Below are positions 14,811-33,231 of a stretch of 64,000 nt of DNA, one piece after another. The position numbers and the translations under genes are program-made. The stretch is from Antennarius striatus (Eukaryota > Chordata > Actinopteri > Lophiiformes > Antennariidae). The notes beneath the pieces are model-generated. The model was given only the letters and a program-made list of their open reading frames with translations. It ran no database searches and was not told where the DNA came from. Positions within the stretch are counted from its first letter, which is position 1. Each line of letters starts with the position of its first letter. The stretch spans positions 12,799,501 through 12,863,500 of the forward strand of contig NC_090796.1 in the NCBI RefSeq assembly GCF_040054535.1, in the 5' to 3' direction.

Positions 14811-16029
14811 GTTAAATGGAATTTTCGATGGCCACATCCTGTGTTCTGAAAGCTGATAAACATTACTGGGTAAGAGATTTAACACTGGATACAATGTGAA
14901 TGTGTGAGGGGTTGCAATAGTGGTGATTGTGACATTATATCTTGTTGAATAAATTTTATTCGAAATAATTTTATGTTGTTTATTCTTACTGGTTCACGTT
15001 CTCAAAAAGAGGCATGATTCAAAGTTTGATCACTTCATATAAGTGCAATATTCTCTTATTTTGAAAATATTATGCCTGTACGTCAGAATCAGGATAGTAA
15101 AATGTATTATTAGAGATTACAATTCAAGCTCACACCCACCCAGAGATTCCGCAATACCAGGAATATTTTAATATTATCTGTAATTTTCATGACTTGTTGT
15201 TGAAAACTAAAGTTTTTCACTATGTAAATATCCACCACAGTCATGACTTTTCATTTCAGCATATTACATTCATAACAGAAAGTAGATCAGTAATAAAATA
15301 TGAGAAGGTGTAGGATATCCACAAGTGATTGAATGCTCTAGTTGTTAGTCAAGAAATAATGTAAGTGCACCAATGCTGGTTATTTAGTCATAACTAATGT
15401 TACTTATCTTATTGACACCTGATTGTCTGTCTTAACAAACTGTGTTTACTTTCTTTTGTCCGGCACTTTTCCTCATGACTACACCTTAGTTTTTAACAGA
15501 TGGCTGAGCTTCACCTGATGTTACTCCATTTCATATTGGCTAAGAACATAGATTTTCAGCCTGTTCTCTTACAGCACACACTGCCAGAGTGGTTTTCAGC
15601 AGAGATTTAATTTTAACAAGAAGTGCAGTTGAAAAACACTTCTCCTATTTCAGTGAACAAATATCAGGGATTATCCCTCTCTGTTTGCTCCCTGCTGAGA
15701 TCTCCTGTTCATTTTATCTCCATCATGTCAAGAAGGATCAGGTGTTTGTCCCCACAGCATCTAATTGGTCACCTGATCCACTGCTGTTCTTATTGCCTGA
15801 GTGTGTAAGTCCAGCTAAACTGAGCCATCCTTGTAATGACACAAATCTACTCTTTCCTTTGTTTTTAAGACTCCAGAGGCAGACGGTGTCTCGAGATGGG
15901 CCTCATTGGAGTTTTAAGGGGCTCTTGAGACCTTGAGACGAAAATTCGTCCATCAAAGGCATTTGGAGGCAGGCCGGTGGGGGTAGCTCTTTCAGCAGCA
16001 GTGGCCTGACAAATGTAGACTTAGTGCAG
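14811..16029 (+). other. ttll6: Candidate ttll6 5' untranslated exons
   Basis: Two segments look like exons. 14811-14869 follows TGTTGCAG and ends in TGG|GTAAGA; it contains an ATG open through the donor. 15877-16029 follows a pyrimidine-rich CTCCAG and ends in GCAG|GTGAGTAAG; it contains a short upstream ORF starting MGLIGVLRGS then stop. Both are in the right place and orientation for ttll6 leader exons. The evidence is splice signals only. Confidence 0.3.
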
Positions 16030-18182
16030 GTGAGTAAGAACCATTTCCAACTCGAAAACTGTTAAACTTCATGTTGAAAAAGTAACTCTGTTAAAAGCTG
16101 CTAATTTATGAGGTGCAAGTGTCTAAAATTTATGTGAAAAGATACATAAGTTCTTTCCAATGTCTTGTTTGGTCATTATCAGCCTATCACAGGAATGTGG
16201 GTCCCTATACTGTAGACTTTAATGGCATATACAGTACGTTGGCCAGTATGCACTGATATAAAGTTGTTTTACAGAATATAATGTTTAAAAAGCCACTTTC
16301 GGGTTTGGGTTTCATTTGTAAGTGTTTTGATGCACTGGAGTTACTGATCAGTATAATTTATTTATAAACTATCAAATATGACTGTATTACAGATCTTTAT
16401 TGCAAGAGTTCAAGGATATTTATTCTAAAAAATAGTAAATACATTTTGTAGTAATATTTTTTACACTCAAATATCAGTAAAAACATGGTCCAATAAACCT
16501 AGAATTGGTCACCTCATCCTTATTGATTAGATTAAGTACTTGAATGAATTTAGCTGTGAATGCGGTTTGTAACTTTGCCCTTGTAATTTTTATTAAAAAG
16601 GGTTTTTTTTATAGGCAGACAATAATAAGTGTTTGAATTCCATGTGGATGTGTATTCTGGATGTTGAATGTTACATAAAGAGAGGTAATACGATCTTTTA
16701 TACTGAATTTAGTCATTGTTTCCTGAGGCCAGACAATTAGGAGGCGCTGTTCATGTATCTGTTGTCGGTGCATGTTGAGGGAGAACCTTGGTGAAATCCT
16801 TTGAGGGGCTGTAACTGGAAACTATCTGAGGTCAGTGGGGCGTCTCAGCCACAGGTCAGGGTCAGGATTATCCAGATCACTGGATCAAAATACTGTTACC
16901 TAGCACCGTAACCTCCCACCAATGTCCCCCCTGTTAGCCTGCCCCCACCATTATTTAATGACGATCATTACCAAGTATTACCTTGAACTTGAACTTATCC
17001 TGACCCTACAAGACACCAGATAGGAGTCAGGGGCCATCAGCCGAGATGCTTGTGGCTGATGGCGTCAGAGTGCAAGTGAGATTAAACCTATTTAAAGTTT
17101 CCTTAAACATTATATTTCAGTTTGCTTGAGACTTGAATATCTCAGCAAATATTAAATAGATTGTCGTGATTTTTTGTTGTTGTCTTAGTTACTTATCATT
17201 TTAAATCATTTATAATCCCAGGAGCATCACTTTTCCATTAATTCCATCATGAAGTTCATTTTTAAGGTTTAGATTTAAAGACATCAATACTTAACCAGTT
17301 TTCTGTAATATATTACTCACCCATTCAGATGACCAAACAAGTATTTGTTGAATACTTCCGTTTATATGTGGGTAGTCACTGCTTTTGTAGACGTCCACAA
17401 TTTACTTTACCAAGTAGACATTGCGTACTTATTGTCCTCAAACTTTACATAACCTCCCTTAGAAACCGATCCCTGCTATGCCTAGATTGATTTAGCCAAC
17501 TAGATGGTTATGCTGATTGCCTGCATTATTTCACACGGCTCATGTGATTCTCTCGTTGTTTGGTTGATGTATTGCAAATAATGCACTGTAAGTTATAGCC
17601 AGCAGCATGGCCAATGAGGAGCCCTTGCCAAAAAAGGACTATCTTTAATGCAGGATTGTATTTTAATGGTGAAATTCAGTCTATTTCAAGTCTGGCTGTT
17701 TTATACAAAGCATTTCACAGTTAAGGAGAAAAAATTGTCATTTAGGCTATGGATTATGATTTCAATTAAACAGCTTATCATATTATTTTTGGCTAGATCA
17801 CCCATTCCTATTTCAAATGTTTTTAAGTTCACATGCTAAAATATGACTGTGAAGATGTTAATCGTAAATCTTAAGCATTAACAATGTGAGCCTGTTTTCT
17901 TAGTTGCAGAAAACAGATCTCTCAGTGCAAAAATTCCATAATACATGGAAGTTGTTAAAAATACACATGGGGATCCTGGACATGTCCTTTAATATTAACC
18001 AAGGAAATAGTACAGACACGTACCCCATACTGTACAACCTGAAGAGAAGTATGATATGTGGAAAGCGACATGCTTATAAAACCGTCACACAGACATTATT
18101 ACTAGAGAATGAGATATTTGAAGTTATCACTAAATTGTTTTTAATCTTACTAACACAGCTTTTGTTTTTCCTGTCCTGTCAG
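16030..18182 (+). other. Probable ttll6 leader intron, no gene seen
   Basis: AT-rich sequence between the candidate leader exon at 15877-16029 and the first coding exon of ttll6. Open frames here (for example 17648-17839 and 17904-18230) have no family similarity and low-complexity, AT-driven composition. I call nothing in it. Confidence 0.4.
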
Positions 18183-18203
18183 CATTATGAGAAGCAATCA
18201 AAC
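18183..18203 (+). other. ttll6: Candidate 21-base ttll6 microexon
   Basis: A 21-base segment flanked by a strong acceptor (TTTTTCCTGTCCTGTCAG) and a strong donor (AAC|GTAAGT). It lies 358 bases upstream of the first recognised ttll6 coding exon. Length is a multiple of three. Only transcript data could confirm it. Confidence 0.25.
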
Positions 18204-18561
18204 GTAAGTTCCTGTGGGTGTCAGAGTTAACCCCCACCCCTGTTCATTATTGTCCACTTTTCCAATCTGTCCTGCAACACTAACTCTTGAACGCCAGTGT
18301 GTGACAGTGTGCTTACAGCCAGAGCACTCACCTGATGAGAGAAATGGAAACGGAAACATGACTCCATGCATGCACCGACACCGTGTACTTTGCAACGTTT
18401 GATTAAATTCCATTGTGGGACCGTGCAGCACGTCTCATTAAAATCGGTCATACAAATGAATGAACAAGTGAACTGCTGTTGTTTGTCTCTTTGTTTTCCA
18501 CAAAAGCTTGTCACGTTGTCTCCCGTCCCAGTGAGTACATTTGCTTGTGTGCCCATGTAGG

Positions 18562-21500
18562 ATGGGTCTACCTATGGACAGCCCAGACAGAACGGATGAT
18601 CCAAATAAATATGAGCAGCAGGGAGATGGAGAAGGAGGCGAAAGCCAAACCGAAGCCCGTGCCCACACCCCTCCACCCGTCAACAAAAAGAAAAAAAAAA
18701 TGAAGAAGAGGTACTTCAATGTTGCATTTGTTCTTCTGCCTTTATTTCCAGTTACTGTACTAGTTCTGCCCAGCATGACAGCTGTGATTTTCTCATTTGT
18801 CCTTATCATTTTGGAAAGACAGAAAAGAATAATTAGACATTTGTAAGACCTTGTAGCAAAGCAGATGTCTGTCCCTCTTTCTGTCTCTCTTTTCTTCCAG
18901 ATGACTGTGGGTGAACCTTACCAACTGCAAATATGAAAGTGGTGCGTGATGAAAAATACATACAAACTAACCCGCTAATGAATGCATTACATTCATCTAT
19001 ATAAATTTTTTACGTTTTAGCTCCTGGTATTAACAGACACTTGATACAAAATGAGTTCTCAGAGTAAAACAGACATTCTTCTTTGTTGCTTGCTGGTCTT
19101 AGTGCGGCGTGCTGCTCACAGATACGGCCTCAGAGAGGCGGCGGAGGGCGAAGACTGGACGCTCATTTGGACCGATTGCTCCGTGTCTCTAGACCGTGTT
19201 AAAGACATGAAGCGTTACCAGGTATTCCAGCGAATTTGCTCACACCGATGCATACACACTGCTGCTATTATCCTAAAAAATTAAGGTGAATTCAAATGCA
19301 TAAATCAACCAGACAAGAAATCAGACAGGCTAGTCCATATGCTCCAGCTGGTTGTAATACCCTTACATGTAATTCAAATTCTTCGACTCAATATGACTGC
19401 TAATGAAATTATAAAGAATGTACATTTCCATTTTGATTATGAGATTGTGGCAATGTTCCAGTGCATGGCCTTCATGGCTCATAACAGTTTTTCAGCTCAA
19501 GTAATCAATTTGTAAACTAATTGGGTTTTTCAATGCAGGAAAATTTAGTACCAGCGATTTCTCTCTGAATGAAGAAGGTGTACTGGTCTATATTGTCATA
19601 GGCTTTGTAAAGTCATACACATAAAAATGTTACATATATTACCTGCAGTTGTGTGCTCTGTAAATACAGCCGTGGTTCTTTTGTTGCATTCCAGAAAATA
19701 AACCATTTCCCAGGGATGAGCGAGATCTGCCGCAAAGATTCACTAGCAAGAAACATGAACAGAATGCTGAAGCTTTTTCCCAAAGATTACAACATCTTCC
19801 CCAGAACGTGGTGCCTTCCCGCAGAGTCAGTTTACATGTAACGCTGAGATTGTGTTATTCTTAATTTGTTTCTCATGTTGTGTCTTGATATACTAACGCC
19901 TTATCTGATTGTGCTACAGTTACAGTGACTTCCAAGCTTACACTAGGGCCAAAAAAGGCAAGACTTACATCTGTAAGCCTGATACCGGTTGCCAAGGCAA
20001 AGGCATCTTCATCACCAAATCAAGCAGAGACATTCAACCTGGAGAACACATGATCTGCCAGGTTTACATCTCCAGGGTGAGGTTCTGTCAAATAACACAC
20101 ACAGATTTAATACAGACACACTGAGTTTACGTGTGTTTTTCATTCACTCCACAGCCACTCGTAATTGATGGATACAAGTTTGACCTGAGGATCTATGTGC
20201 TGGTAACATCATGTGACCCATTCAGCATATTCATGTTCAAGGAAGGACTGGCACGCTTCTGCACCACTAAGTACAATCAGCCAACCCACAGCAACCTGGT
20301 ACATTTTTCTTGTTACGATTAAATCTCATGAAAAATACATAAACCAGCAATGAATGAAGAGTGTGACCAAATGCTGAGGTACTGTTCTTATTTGCCAAAA
20401 ATGATGGAGACCATATCAGCAGGTACACTGCTACGCTTGCTGACATATTCCATCGTTAATAGACACGTTAATAGACACATACACCTTGTAGTTTATTTTT
20501 TATCCTCACTGGACTGTCAAATGTGGATTCAAAAAGATAATTGTCCTTAACAAAGGCGCAGTTTCCTCACGTCTCAGTCATATTTGTTGAAAACTTTTTT
20601 TATTTTATTTTAAAGATGCTTTCAATGGGAATCAATGGGTTGGGATCACATCGTCAACTACTGACAGACTAATGAACTGGTGATGGTTAATTTTAGTCTT
20701 GTAACACAATTTCTTTTAACAAAAATAAAAACATTGCAAGGCAACAGCCCTAGAATTTAATTATCACAAATTAGGCACGGTAATCACTGTCCTGTACTTC
20801 ACAATAAAAAGTACTTTTCGTGTCTATTCATATTGTTTCATTGGCAGCCTGTTATTGCGATTACAAAGAGATAAAATAAGAAATAAAGAATTAACAAATA
20901 AATTTCAGAAAGTTATTCAAAAACAATCCTGAATATAACCCTAAAACAAGAGGAAACCTTTAGAACAACCCATTATTTACAGTACTAAATTTGTTTTGAT
21001 AATTTTTCTCATGTCAGTAAAATGCCCATTGTAAGTTCTCTATGTGAAATGCTATATCTCACTTCCCCGTCTCTGTTATATTAGGATGATGTGTGCATGC
21101 ATCTAACAAACTACTCCATCAATAAGAACAGCAAGAACTTTGTGCGTGATGAAGACACCGGCAGCAAGCGGTAAATATGTAGATAATACTTGTGTTTTAT
21201 TACTGATACATTATTCAATACTGTTAATTAACTGGGCCTTTTGTGCTTCCTAGAAAGCTTTCCACCCTCAACAAACTTCTGGAATCCATGAGCTGCAACA
21301 CTGAAAAGATGTGGAACGAAATTGAAGACATGATCGTAAAAACTCTGATCTCCGCTCACCCCATCCTCAAACATAATTATCACACATGCTTCCCCAACCA
21401 CACCACCGGCAGTGCCTGCTTCGAGATCCTGGGCTTCGATGTGCTGCTGGATTACCGGCTCAGACCCTGGGTGCTGGAGGTGAGGGGTATTAACAGACAC

Positions 21501-24500
21501 TCAGTGCCTCTGTTTTCAACAGAAATCTTTTTCATTTATGTTTTCAACCCTTTGATATTGAAAATAGAATTGTATTCCACACCACCAGTGTTAATTATAA
21601 TGTCTCTATGGCTGTGCCTTTAAATAGATTTTTCTCATGTTATACTTTATTTTAAATGCATTACAGGAAAAAACACTGACACACCTTTTCCGTCATGTAA
21701 AATAAATTTTTTAAAAGGTGCTGTATATTTATTTAGGAAATAGTCTTATTTTCTATCTTTTAAAATCTGATTCTCTAGTTTGTGATCATGTTACTTGGCA
21801 TGATCGCCTCATGCTTGTGTGTCCAGGTGAATCACTCCCCAAGTTTTACCACTGACTCGCAGCTGGACCGTGAGGTAAAGGACATGCTCCTGTACGACAC
21901 TCTGGTCCTCATCAACTTGGGCGCATGCGACCGCCGCAAGATCACCAAAGAAGAGAGACGTAGGGTGAAGGACAGGCTACAGCAAAACAGTTCCAGAGAG
22001 GCCAGGTAGGGTTCTGTCAGCTGCAAATGGTGTGTAATATTTTTTTTCCTCAAGGTCAATCGTTCATTTGTGCCTCCTGCAGACATTTGCAGGCAACTGT
22101 CACTCCATGTGTGTTTGTGTCGGTGTGTTTCACCACCAGGTCGGAAGAACTACGTCACTACCAGGCAGTCACAGTCCAGCAGATGGAGAACTATGAGGCC
22201 AAACACCTGGGTGGCTTCAAGAGGATTTATCCCAGAGAGGGAGGCGAGAAATACGAGAAGTACTTTATGCACAGCAGCTCCCTCTTCCAGGAGACCGCAG
22301 CATCCAAGGCCAGAGAGGAGTGTGCCAGGTACCTGCAGCATTTTTTAAAAACGCATTCAATACAGAAAAGAGCAGAGCTGTATGGTAAATTTAAATATTT
22401 TTCGACCTAAAAGATGTATAACTGGCCTCACAAGAAAAGGAAAAAAAGGGATATGAAATTACATTGAATTCAACTCTCCCCCTGGGTTGTGAGGATTAGT
22501 CAATTTACTGGGTTGAGTATTTGAGCAACTCTACATCAATTGACAAGTAGGCAGAGGAAAATACGTGTTTGCGGTAGTGACAGCTGAGCCTATAAAAGTA
22601 TATAGTTACAGATTTTCCTCAATATTGATAACAGCAACACATCTCACTCAGCACCTCAAAGGATTGTTTTTATCAGCAACAGCTGTAATCATAGATAAAT
22701 CTTTGAATTAATAAAGAACATTCTAAACATTAGCTTTGAAATTTTCATCTATGTAGACTTGAGATTTTTCTCATTTTACTTTCTATTTTATATCAATAGT
22801 AATCGTATCTGGATTTTTGACTGTAAGATTTCAACAAAAATTGTATCTGCTTTCATTCAAAGATAAAAATACTCATTGTTTCTGGCAGATATATATAATA
22901 CCACAAATACTTTTTGATATTGATATATTGATATAATTAAGCTGCTTTTGAGTTCATCACTAAAATACATTTTATAAAATTACTGGTTACTAAAGTTACA
23001 AAATAAATTAAATAGAATTGAAATTATAATATTTATCGGAGAAATATAGAGTATAAAATAAACTTTTCTTTTTTTTGTTTTAATTTGTTGTGTTGTTTTT
23101 ATTCCAAATCCTTCAACGTCATTAAAGAGGTCAAGTCTTGTGTTTTTGCGGACTCAGGCAACAACTGCAGGAGCTGCGTCTGAAACAGCAGAAGGAGAAA
23201 GACCAGAAGGGAGGCCGGGGCAGAGACTTGCAGGGGGAGACAGCAGGGGAGAGAGTCAAAGCCAGACGAGCACAAACACAACCCCCGACGTCAAAGGGTG
23301 ACTGTGACTCCATCCATCCACCGGTGAGCCTATGATAGCGCCAGATTAAAGGTGCAGTGACCGCATGAAACCACAAGAGGGAGTCAAACAGGTTCCAGCC
23401 TTTGAAAAATGGTTCATATTCTGGCTGACCCCTTTGAGTAAATGTACTCTTGCCAAATTTAAATTGGCCTGAATAATACTCCTGCAGATCATTTTTATTG
23501 GATGTTACTCATTCCCAATTCAAATACCTTGTATTGTCAAGACAGAAAAAACAATGTTATCAAGAGTATTCAGTGACAGTAATTGCAAATGTATTGTAAA
23601 TACATACTCATAGGTTACATATACAGTGAGGCAATAAAAACAAATTAAATCAAGCTTCGTTATGTTTTCTCTGCAGGCGCCGCTGTCCAGTGTCTCAGTG
23701 GAACTTGAAGCTGCAGATGTCCAAGAAGAGAAGCAGCAGCAGCAAAGGGAGGAGGAGGAACAAGAGAAGGAGGCAGAGATGGAGGAGCAGGAGCGTCTCG
23801 ATGCACTCCTCCAGAGGAGGAAATTACTGCAGGATCTGGGGGTGGTGGACCAGATCCATCGGCTGCTGCGGGGCCACAAAGAGGGACAGGGAGTCCTGCA
23901 GAATGCCAAGGAGAGTACCCACCAGCCGAGTCAGCAGGCGCACCAGAGACAGCAGCAGGTGAAGGTAAGATTCAGACCACAACGGTCTGGATTTTTTTGG
24001 TGTGTTGTTGGTTAAATTATGGCATGACTGCTTTCTTTAGCCTCTAGTCACTGCACCATTGTTCTTCCATTTCAGTTGGATTCTTTGAAAAAAATTTCCC
24101 ACAAAGCAAAGCAGCAGCCGTGCACTCAGATGTCATGGCAGGTACATCAACAGATGCACATGATAACAGTCCAACACACAGAATGCAATGTTTGGTTGAC
24201 TAAGGAAAAAGAGAAATGATAAAGAATGTCTGGTTCCCTTTTGCACAAAAAAAAGTTACCACGGTGATTTCAGGAGATGATCCATTTTCCTTCGCAATTT
24301 CCATAAAACTGAAAGAAAAAAACATTTTTATTAATTGTAATGCAGATCCACAACAAACAATTATGTTGATTATTGATTGACCCACTTGTTGTTTTCTTGA
24401 TTAATTGGGTAATCTGTAAAATGTTAACAAATAGCAAAAATAATATATTATTTACAAATTTATTTTAGTATTGTGATTACTTCAGTTTATTATTTTGTGC

Positions 24501-25492
24501 CATCTTGTATTATTATTACATTTACTTTCTCTATTCAAAGACAACCAGTATTTTCTTACATTTGAGATGAAAAACAGAATAGAATAAAAGATTCCTAAAA
24601 TGAAACAATTGTGGATTGGCTTTTTAATGATCACTAGTCCTGATTTAGCACAGAAATGTGTGCAATTTCTAATGGTTTCCAAAATAAAACCAAGAGTCTA
24701 AGCTTTACTCGCTGTGCCTCAGTTAAACTTTGCAAAAATTGGCAAAATTAATTTTTTTAAAATCATAAGTATCCTAATGTAAATCCACATCTGTCAGTTT
24801 ATTCAATATTTATATGCAGAGATTATTTTAAGACCAATATATTAATAGATCATTCAGAAACTGATATTGACAATTTGTCAATGAAAAATGAAAATTGATG
24901 TTTTGGCTCATTGTCAGTGATTCCATAACCCTTCTGTATATATAGATGAAGGGCATAGTGTAGCATATTACTAATAATTTCTCCAACCAATTAAATCATC
25001 ACCAAAGGCAATTAAAATGACATAACATTGTTCCTGTGTTACAGCACACTCACATCCACATGACTCAGCAGTGCCAGCTCAGGCCCCCAACTGATCAGAG
25101 GTACCCAGATTCTGAGCCCGAGAGCCACAACAGAGTGGGAGAACTTCGTAGGACCTTCAGCACCCAGCGGATTCACTGCCCAGGTAAAAGCATGCGGTTT
25201 ATATGACGTGACCAAACGCAATGGCAGCCATAAATCTGTATTTCTGGAGGGGATTTTTTTTTTAAAATGTTTCTTAGGCTTTCACAAAGTTTATTCAACA
25301 ACTTTTTTCATTCAGTATTGATCTACTGTTTTTGTTGTATTTTATTGGTATAAAATATAGAATAGGGGAATGTGTGTTCGACTTTATTTTGAAAATATTT
25401 GTAGCTGTAAGAAAACAAAAGTGTTTAATCGTTTTATTTTTGAAGTTAAGTTAGGGAAAAGTATAAAGAAATCACCTAAAAAAAATAATAAA

Positions 25493-25546
<54 letters not shown>

Positions 25547-25557
25547 ATGTATGTGTA

Positions 25558-25643
<86 letters not shown>

Positions 25644-25704
25644 TACATACATACATACATACATACATACACACAGGCACTTAACTGTAGTGTGTGTATG
25701 TATG

Positions 25705-25756
<52 letters not shown>

Positions 25757-26321
25757 CACACTACACATATATAATACAAGTTACACCTACTCTGTCCATC
25801 TAGTTACACAATTATAATATAATTCAACTTAAATTATTACTTTTTACCCTTAATTTACATATAAAATGTTGTTTTGCAATGTTTAGGATACATTTTTATT
25901 TTTATAATCTTGGCATATTTCCAAAGACAAACACAATTAGACAAATAGTGAAACACAGCTTCTGATTGTCTTAGTTTTGAATGTTTTCTCCTCTGTTCCC
26001 TCACCAGCCATCAGCTCTCTGGCTGTGAGGCATGACATTGGGAGCTGCTCCTACACCGACTCACAGCCCCGTCACAGCATCTCAAACTTTCGCCACATCC
26101 CCCGAGGAGGCCTGCGCTGCGGTGCCTACACCACCCAGGACCCCACAGCCCTGCACGGCCTGCTTGTCATCTCCACTTGTGCCCCCCTAGTTAAGAGACC
26201 TGGTTTCTCTCACATAATTCACAACGTCTCTCACAGAGCTCCCAGCAAGGTAAACGGCACTGGGGAGCAGGACCACCGGGTCCAGACTGGATCAAAGCGA
26301 CTGCAGACAGACAGAACCTGA
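18562..26321 (+). CDS. ttll6: TTLL6, tubulin polyglutamylase
   Basis: TTLL6 is an ATP-grasp ligase that elongates glutamate side chains on tubulin tails, mainly on axonemal microtubules. Fifteen exons join in frame to about 796 residues: 18562-18710, 18904-18941, 19103-19221, 19695-19825, 19920-20076, 20155-20298, 21085-21170, 21254-21479, 21827-22005, 22140-22328, 23158-23323, 23677-23964, 24076-24141, 25045-25183, 26008-26321. The TTL core is intact: [38 protein letters not shown] (nucleotide binding), [38 protein letters not shown] and PWVLEVNHSPSF with the Glu and Asn expected to bind metal. A basic microtubule-binding helix region ([15 protein letters not shown]) and a Gln/Glu-rich tail follow. 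Exon 2 is odd: its canonical AG acceptor (18899-18900) would place an in-frame TGA directly before the conserved [12 protein letters not shown]; the model above starts three bases later after a TG. The ATG follows an acceptor at 18559-18560, so the true N-terminus could lie in an upstream exon. Confidence 0.92.
25493..25760. repeat. Compound (TA)n/(GT)n/(CA)n microsatellite with inverted symmetry
   Basis: Within ttll6 intron 14. Blocks run (TA)n, (GT)n/(GTAT)n, long (TA)n, (CA)n/(CATA)n, a short unique stretch, (GT)n/(GTAT)n, (TA)n, then CATACACA. The GT and CA blocks are mutually complementary around TA cores, so hairpins or cruciforms are possible. Open frames of alternating Tyr-Ile or Thr-His here are artefacts. 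Confidence 0.95.
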
Positions 26322-31368: not shown

Positions 31369-31375
31369 TATAAAA
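31369..31375 (+). promoter_or_regulatory. hoxb6b: hoxb6b TATA box
   Basis: TATAAAA 50 bases upstream of the hoxb6b ATG. If used, the leader is only about 20-25 bases. A second TATA-like element (GTATATAC) lies near 31400. Confidence 0.45.
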
Positions 31376-31424
31376 GACAACAAATCATATTCCTCCGGAG
31401 TATATACACCCCGTTGTCCACCCA

Positions 31425-33231
<1,807 letters not shown>

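Follow-up and report, generated by a model that had tools for sequence, protein, structure and literature searches.

An in-frame TGA at the intron 1/exon 2 joint of ttll6 in Antennarius striatus: variant base or TG acceptor?

The first intron of ttll6 in Antennarius striatus ends in an ordinary CAG, and a transcript joined at this site reads a stop codon almost at once, while a cut after a TG three bases further on leaves the frame open. The question therefore is whether the protein depends on a TG acceptor or whether the TGA is a variant or miscalled base in the copy that was sequenced. The window analysed here is the whole stretch of 64,000 nucleotides, and the assembly that contains it comprises 548 Mb in 42 contigs. 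The predicted protein carries a tubulin-tyrosine ligase domain (PF03133, Pfam TTL, residues 98-377, E 6.3e-87), and its N-terminal 102 residues, used as query in the TG-spliced version, have their best PDB matches in TTLL6 chains (6vzt, 8t42 and others, E 6.8e-52), with a gapless alignment over the exon 1/2 joint. With this domain and TTLL6 as closest match, the gene is by sequence ttll6. A search of its own assembly with a 370-residue query, in which all 29 first-look candidates were scored, gave 23 matches, seven of them within ttll6 and 16 elsewhere, in pieces and at 37-70% identity. The latter are taken to be other TTLL genes, and the gene described here is thus the sole TTLL6-like gene found in the assembly. 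The exon model, with the features of the first intron, is as follows.

18562-18710, forward strand: ttll6 exon 1 (coding part), ending in phase 2 (AG, then gtactt) and encoding ...KKKKKMKK plus the AG of an Arg codon
18711-18900, forward strand: intron 1, 190 nt, GT...CAG, with pyrimidines at 16/17 positions before the CAG
18899-18900, forward strand: canonical AG acceptor, rated strong on both pyrimidine content and a leave-one-out matrix of the other ttll6 acceptors
18902-18904, forward strand: in-frame TGA, codon 51 under the AG acceptor
18902-18903, forward strand: candidate TG acceptor, 3 nt 3' of the AG, motif class CAG/ATG (the slash marks the AG cut)
18901 (AG cut) or 18904 (TG cut) to 18941, forward strand: ttll6 exon 2, open part 18904-18941, donor gtgcgt
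19103-19221, forward strand: ttll6 exon 3
19695-19825, forward strand: ttll6 exon 4
19920-20076, forward strand: ttll6 exon 5
20155-20298, forward strand: ttll6 exon 6
21085-21170, forward strand: ttll6 exon 7
21254-21479, forward strand: ttll6 exon 8
21827-22005, forward strand: ttll6 exon 9
22140-22328, forward strand: ttll6 exon 10
23158-23323, forward strand: ttll6 exon 11
23677-23964, forward strand: ttll6 exon 12
24076-24141, forward strand: ttll6 exon 13
25045-25183, forward strand: ttll6 exon 14
26008-26321, forward strand: ttll6 exon 15, terminal stop TGA at 26319-26321

For exon 4, the GT donor was picked from alternatives by fit to TTLL6. In this model, exons 3-15 (19103-26321, forward strand) contain neither a stop nor a frameshift before the terminal TGA, and all introns except the first, 13 of 14, are GT-AG; intron 1 is either GT-AG with the stop or GT-TG without it. 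A long TA/TG microsatellite (25495-25755) lies within intron 14.

Intron 1 ends with CTTCCAG up to 18900, followed by ATGACTGTGGGTGAAC, so that the AG at 18899-18900 is succeeded by A18901, T18902, G18903 and A18904. Given the phase 2 end of exon 1, AG splicing reads AGA-TGA-CTG. With the cut at 18900 the coding sequence amounts to 2394 nt and has an extra in-frame TGA as codon 51; with the cut at 18903 it amounts to 2391 nt and 796 aa and has a terminal stop only. The first-pass annotation had given the intron end and the stop under AG splicing with exact coordinates, and its total of 2391 bases in 15 exons for a cut after the ATG is reproduced by the rebuilt model with its single terminal stop. 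Translation of 18841-18942 revealed one open frame through exon 2 with the TGA immediately 5' of it, and the other two frames are closed. The TGA is therefore unavoidable from any upstream acceptor, and since the single open frame starts directly after the TGA, this conclusion is independent of the length of exon 1 and of its A10 run (18691-18700). This run of coding adenines is a likely spot for indel errors, although at its current length the exon ends in the phase required by the model. The stretch after the stop begins LWVNL (18905-18916); the solved TTLL6 structures read LVINL here, with Val and Ile in place of the Trp and Val. A Trp would not be expected at this place; relaxed constraint is one possible cause, a wrong base in TGTGGG another.

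Several simpler ways around the stop were considered and rejected. An acceptor upstream of 18900 does not help, as any transcript that reads the open frame of exon 2 hits the TGA, and the next downstream AG (18938-18939) would remove almost all of exon 2. Skipping of exon 2 breaks the frame, as the phase 2 end of exon 1 would be joined to the phase 1 start of exon 3. An error in the A10 homopolymer is insufficient as sole cause because the stop sits inside exon 2. A U12-type intron 1 was ruled out since the donor gtactt does not agree with the U12 donor consensus. A second copy of exon 2 was not detected by tblastn with 20- and 52-residue queries against the whole window, where the gene's own exons were found with E 1.4e-4 or better and nothing else below E 0.3. 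The repeats found in 16000-20000 comprise four short families of two copies each as well as two inverted pairs, and none of them overlaps exon 2. A 17-base exact pattern spanning the site occurs once in the assembly, a search that a copy differing by one base would escape. Another CAGATG is present at 18862-18867, 36 nt 5' of the acceptor and ahead of the pyrimidine tract, and a pattern scan found no match to the loose branch-point pattern NTNAN between it and the acceptor AG.

That TG 3' splice sites close to an AG form a rare but recognised class, as had been stated at first pass, is confirmed by the available sections of Szafranski et al. 2007 (PMC2374985), from which all survey figures given here are taken. 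They list alternative TG acceptors in 36 human introns, and RT-PCR reproduced 11 of the 12 tested; the working share of candidate TG motifs is put at ~0.01%. GT-TG introns are also mentioned in the part of a later survey available to us (PMC4176328). The ttll6 site resembles the U2-type AG-TG tandems of PMC2374985 in several respects: it has a GT donor (gtactt) and a pyrimidine tract (16/17), its TG lies exactly 3 nt 3' of the CAG, well inside the 28-nt limit for the distance from the canonical AG, its motif is the same CAG/ATG, and it belongs to a first intron, a location over-represented among TG sites (8/36). It differs in that the AG form would carry a stop, so that here the TG form would have to be the productive one, and in that the TG candidate is known from DNA alone. 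A further difference is the strength of the AG. In the survey, AGs beside used TGs are weaker than average (6.1 versus 8.5), a tendency and not a defining rule, and this weakness is not found at 18899-18900. The pyrimidine content of the ttll6 AG is the highest among the gene's 14 acceptors, and its leave-one-out score of 11.2, from a matrix built on 13 training sites and not a maxent model, is tied second of 14.

These comparisons bear directly on a working, obligatory TG acceptor at 18902-18903, which we regard as possible and rank second. In such a scheme the AG and its pyrimidine tract would recruit U2AF and set up the first step, and the second step would join exon 1 after the TG; this two-step choice is a hypothesis of PMC2374985. 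Productive ttll6 mRNA would then come from TG use only and AG transcripts, stopped at codon 51, would be decayed. Excision of exactly ATG does give back the 2391-nt frame, and used tandems of the CAG/ATG and AAG/ATG type have been described, among which the TG share of PCGF2 reached 0.99 in placenta (PMC2374985). However, PCGF2 has AAG where ttll6 has CAG, and what distinguishes its two forms is an upstream reading frame. Three CAG/ATG cases appear in the survey table (PMC2374985). In C21orf63 the TG share was 0.09 in leukocyte clones and none in brain, in PCID2 it was 0.04 of ESTs and 0.02 of clones, and in FBXO17 it was 0.14 of ESTs, which RT-PCR did not reproduce. Both reproduced CAG/ATG sites thus use TG in just 2% and 9%, and the available sections report no constitutive TG acceptor in the human survey. 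The gapless joint with the solved TTLL6 structures argues weakly for the TG: only the TG version was compared, and because the joint sits at a lysine run, which can vary, the match allows one extra residue. The first-pass claim that a TG acceptor restores the protein therefore holds for the reading frame, while the use of the TG is disfavoured by the strong AG and by the published precedent.

The best argument linking the stop to splicing is its position. Single-base changes that create a nonsense codon number 323-324 in the coding sequence when every change is weighted equally, and a TG acceptor three bases further on would be able to eliminate just one or two of them, according to which sense codon is assumed at position 51. 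This rarity weighs about 160-320 to 1 in favour of a splice-site-linked explanation; it supports the TG acceptor and counts against a random variant, for which the chance of landing where a TG acceptor can remove it is only 1-2 in 323-324. It does not, however, tell a working TG from a former NAGNAG acceptor that has lost its second AG by mutation.

Weighing these points, we favour the reading that the TGA is a variant or miscalled base in the sequenced copy and that splicing uses the ordinary AG, with a probability of roughly one half; this figure, like the gradings given in words for the alternatives, is a judgement and not a computed posterior. It is ranked above an obligatory TG because the precedent predicts a few percent of TG use, which is too little when the AG product is a stop. 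It is favoured further because the AG is strong whereas the AGs of human TG tandems are weaker, with TG use of 2% and 9% at the two reproduced CAG/ATG sites, and because six of 20 unusual human 3-nt pairs turned out to be NAGNAG acceptors hidden by a reference SNP, the others being six false positives and eight TG sites (PMC2374985). The ttll6 site, of which one allele is known here, is like these masked acceptors in that an A at 18902 alone would give CAGAAG. On the favoured reading ttll6 would be a working gene, with the CAG up to 18900 as the normal acceptor of intron 1 and the stop absent from other copies.

The TGA can be reached from eight sense codons by a single-base change, and its source may be of three kinds. 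It could be a nonsense allele, for which a CpG transition of CGA to TGA (C to T at 18902) is the easiest route; it could be a NAGNAG acceptor whose second AG was turned into TG (18902 A to T); or it could be an assembly base error. By general mutation rates, the CpG transition from C at 18902 is the easiest of the eight. An A at 18902, proposed at first pass as the simpler alternative, hence stands as one of the eight precursors, but C is the likelier one. From the assembled copy, an AG-spliced transcript would stop at codon 51 and nonsense-mediated decay would be expected, an effect that leaky TG splicing may lessen. If the stop is private or recent, the remainder of the gene is expected to be free of stops and frameshifts, as it is in the model.

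The same intact exons argue against a fixed nonsense change by which ttll6 has been, or is being, lost in the species. AG splicing does put a stop at codon 51, and the Trp in LWVNL, Val in solved TTLL6, hints at some relaxation; yet exons 3-15 are uninterrupted, 13 of 14 introns are canonical, and permanent loss is unlikely because no second TTLL6-like gene was found among the 23 matches in the own assembly. We consider such a loss very improbable.

A working transcript could also start elsewhere and skip codon 51, by an alternative first exon or by an ATG in intron 2.

19051-19221, forward strand: possible alternative start, intron 2 ATG in frame into exon 3; TATAAA at 19000

No stop intervenes between this ATG and exon 3, and since the Pfam TTL match begins at residue 98 the domain would survive. 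But such ATGs occur in 4 of the 14 ttll6 introns (intron 2 counted) and are unremarkable. Moreover, the exon 2 stretch that aligns with the solved TTLL6 would be lost, and the lysine-rich stretch preceding it in the structures is already supplied by exon 1. An alternative start is thus improbable, if slightly less so than gene loss.

As little credit as to gene loss is given to post-transcriptional rescue, by UGA-C readthrough or by A-to-I editing of UGA to UGG, or to another base error, an indel in GGG (18909-18911) combined with a start at ATG 18901. With one G fewer the sequence would read ATG-ACT-GTG-GTG-AAC, translated by hand as MTVVNLTNC and close to VINLSNC of the solved TTLL6, but this requires either a start at 18901, by which exon 1 is lost, or a further indel within exon 1. 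Against post-transcriptional rescue, the predicted fold of the RNA from 18700 to 19110 is ordinary compared with shuffled sequences (z -0.41; 32 of 100 shuffles were at least as stable). ADAR disfavours G as 5' neighbour of the edited A, and the candidate UGA has a G there.

Other sequences were searched for information on the site. A paralogous gene on C7, presumably TTLL7, has an intron at the same place as intron 2, within a Val codon, but is uninterrupted where exons 1 and 2 of ttll6 meet, and is therefore uninformative on the ancestral acceptor. Scans of viral and general genome contig sets for stray fish DNA from relatives gave 10 and 28 pattern matches, none of which was confirmed. Titles and abstract openings among the matches listed in a literature search contained no mention of the ttll6 site, and the available part of PMC11695996 holds nothing on the intron 1 site.

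An ORF in the window (31374-31928) contains ...YPWMQRMN and reads like the first exon of what we take to be a Hoxb6-type gene; if this identity holds, ttll6 would adjoin a hox cluster. DNA alone cannot separate TG splicing from a broken or misread copy, and the meaning of the site differs accordingly. If the TG is unused, the locus is a caution that a single base decides the annotation of the ttll6 N-terminus. A fixed, obligatory GT-TG intron, in which the strong AG recruits the spliceosome and diverts transcripts to decay, is doubtful, a little more so than TG use as such. In that case the tandem would set the output of the gene, because the AG product decays and the TG product alone is productive, and would thereby control how much of a ciliary glutamylase is made. 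It would be a TG acceptor on which a protein depends, a state unreported in the available sections of the 2007 human survey (PMC2374985). Since the protein frame depends on the choice of the TG, a used TG would make ttll6 a natural test of 3' site choice in the second step when the productive site is not an AG.
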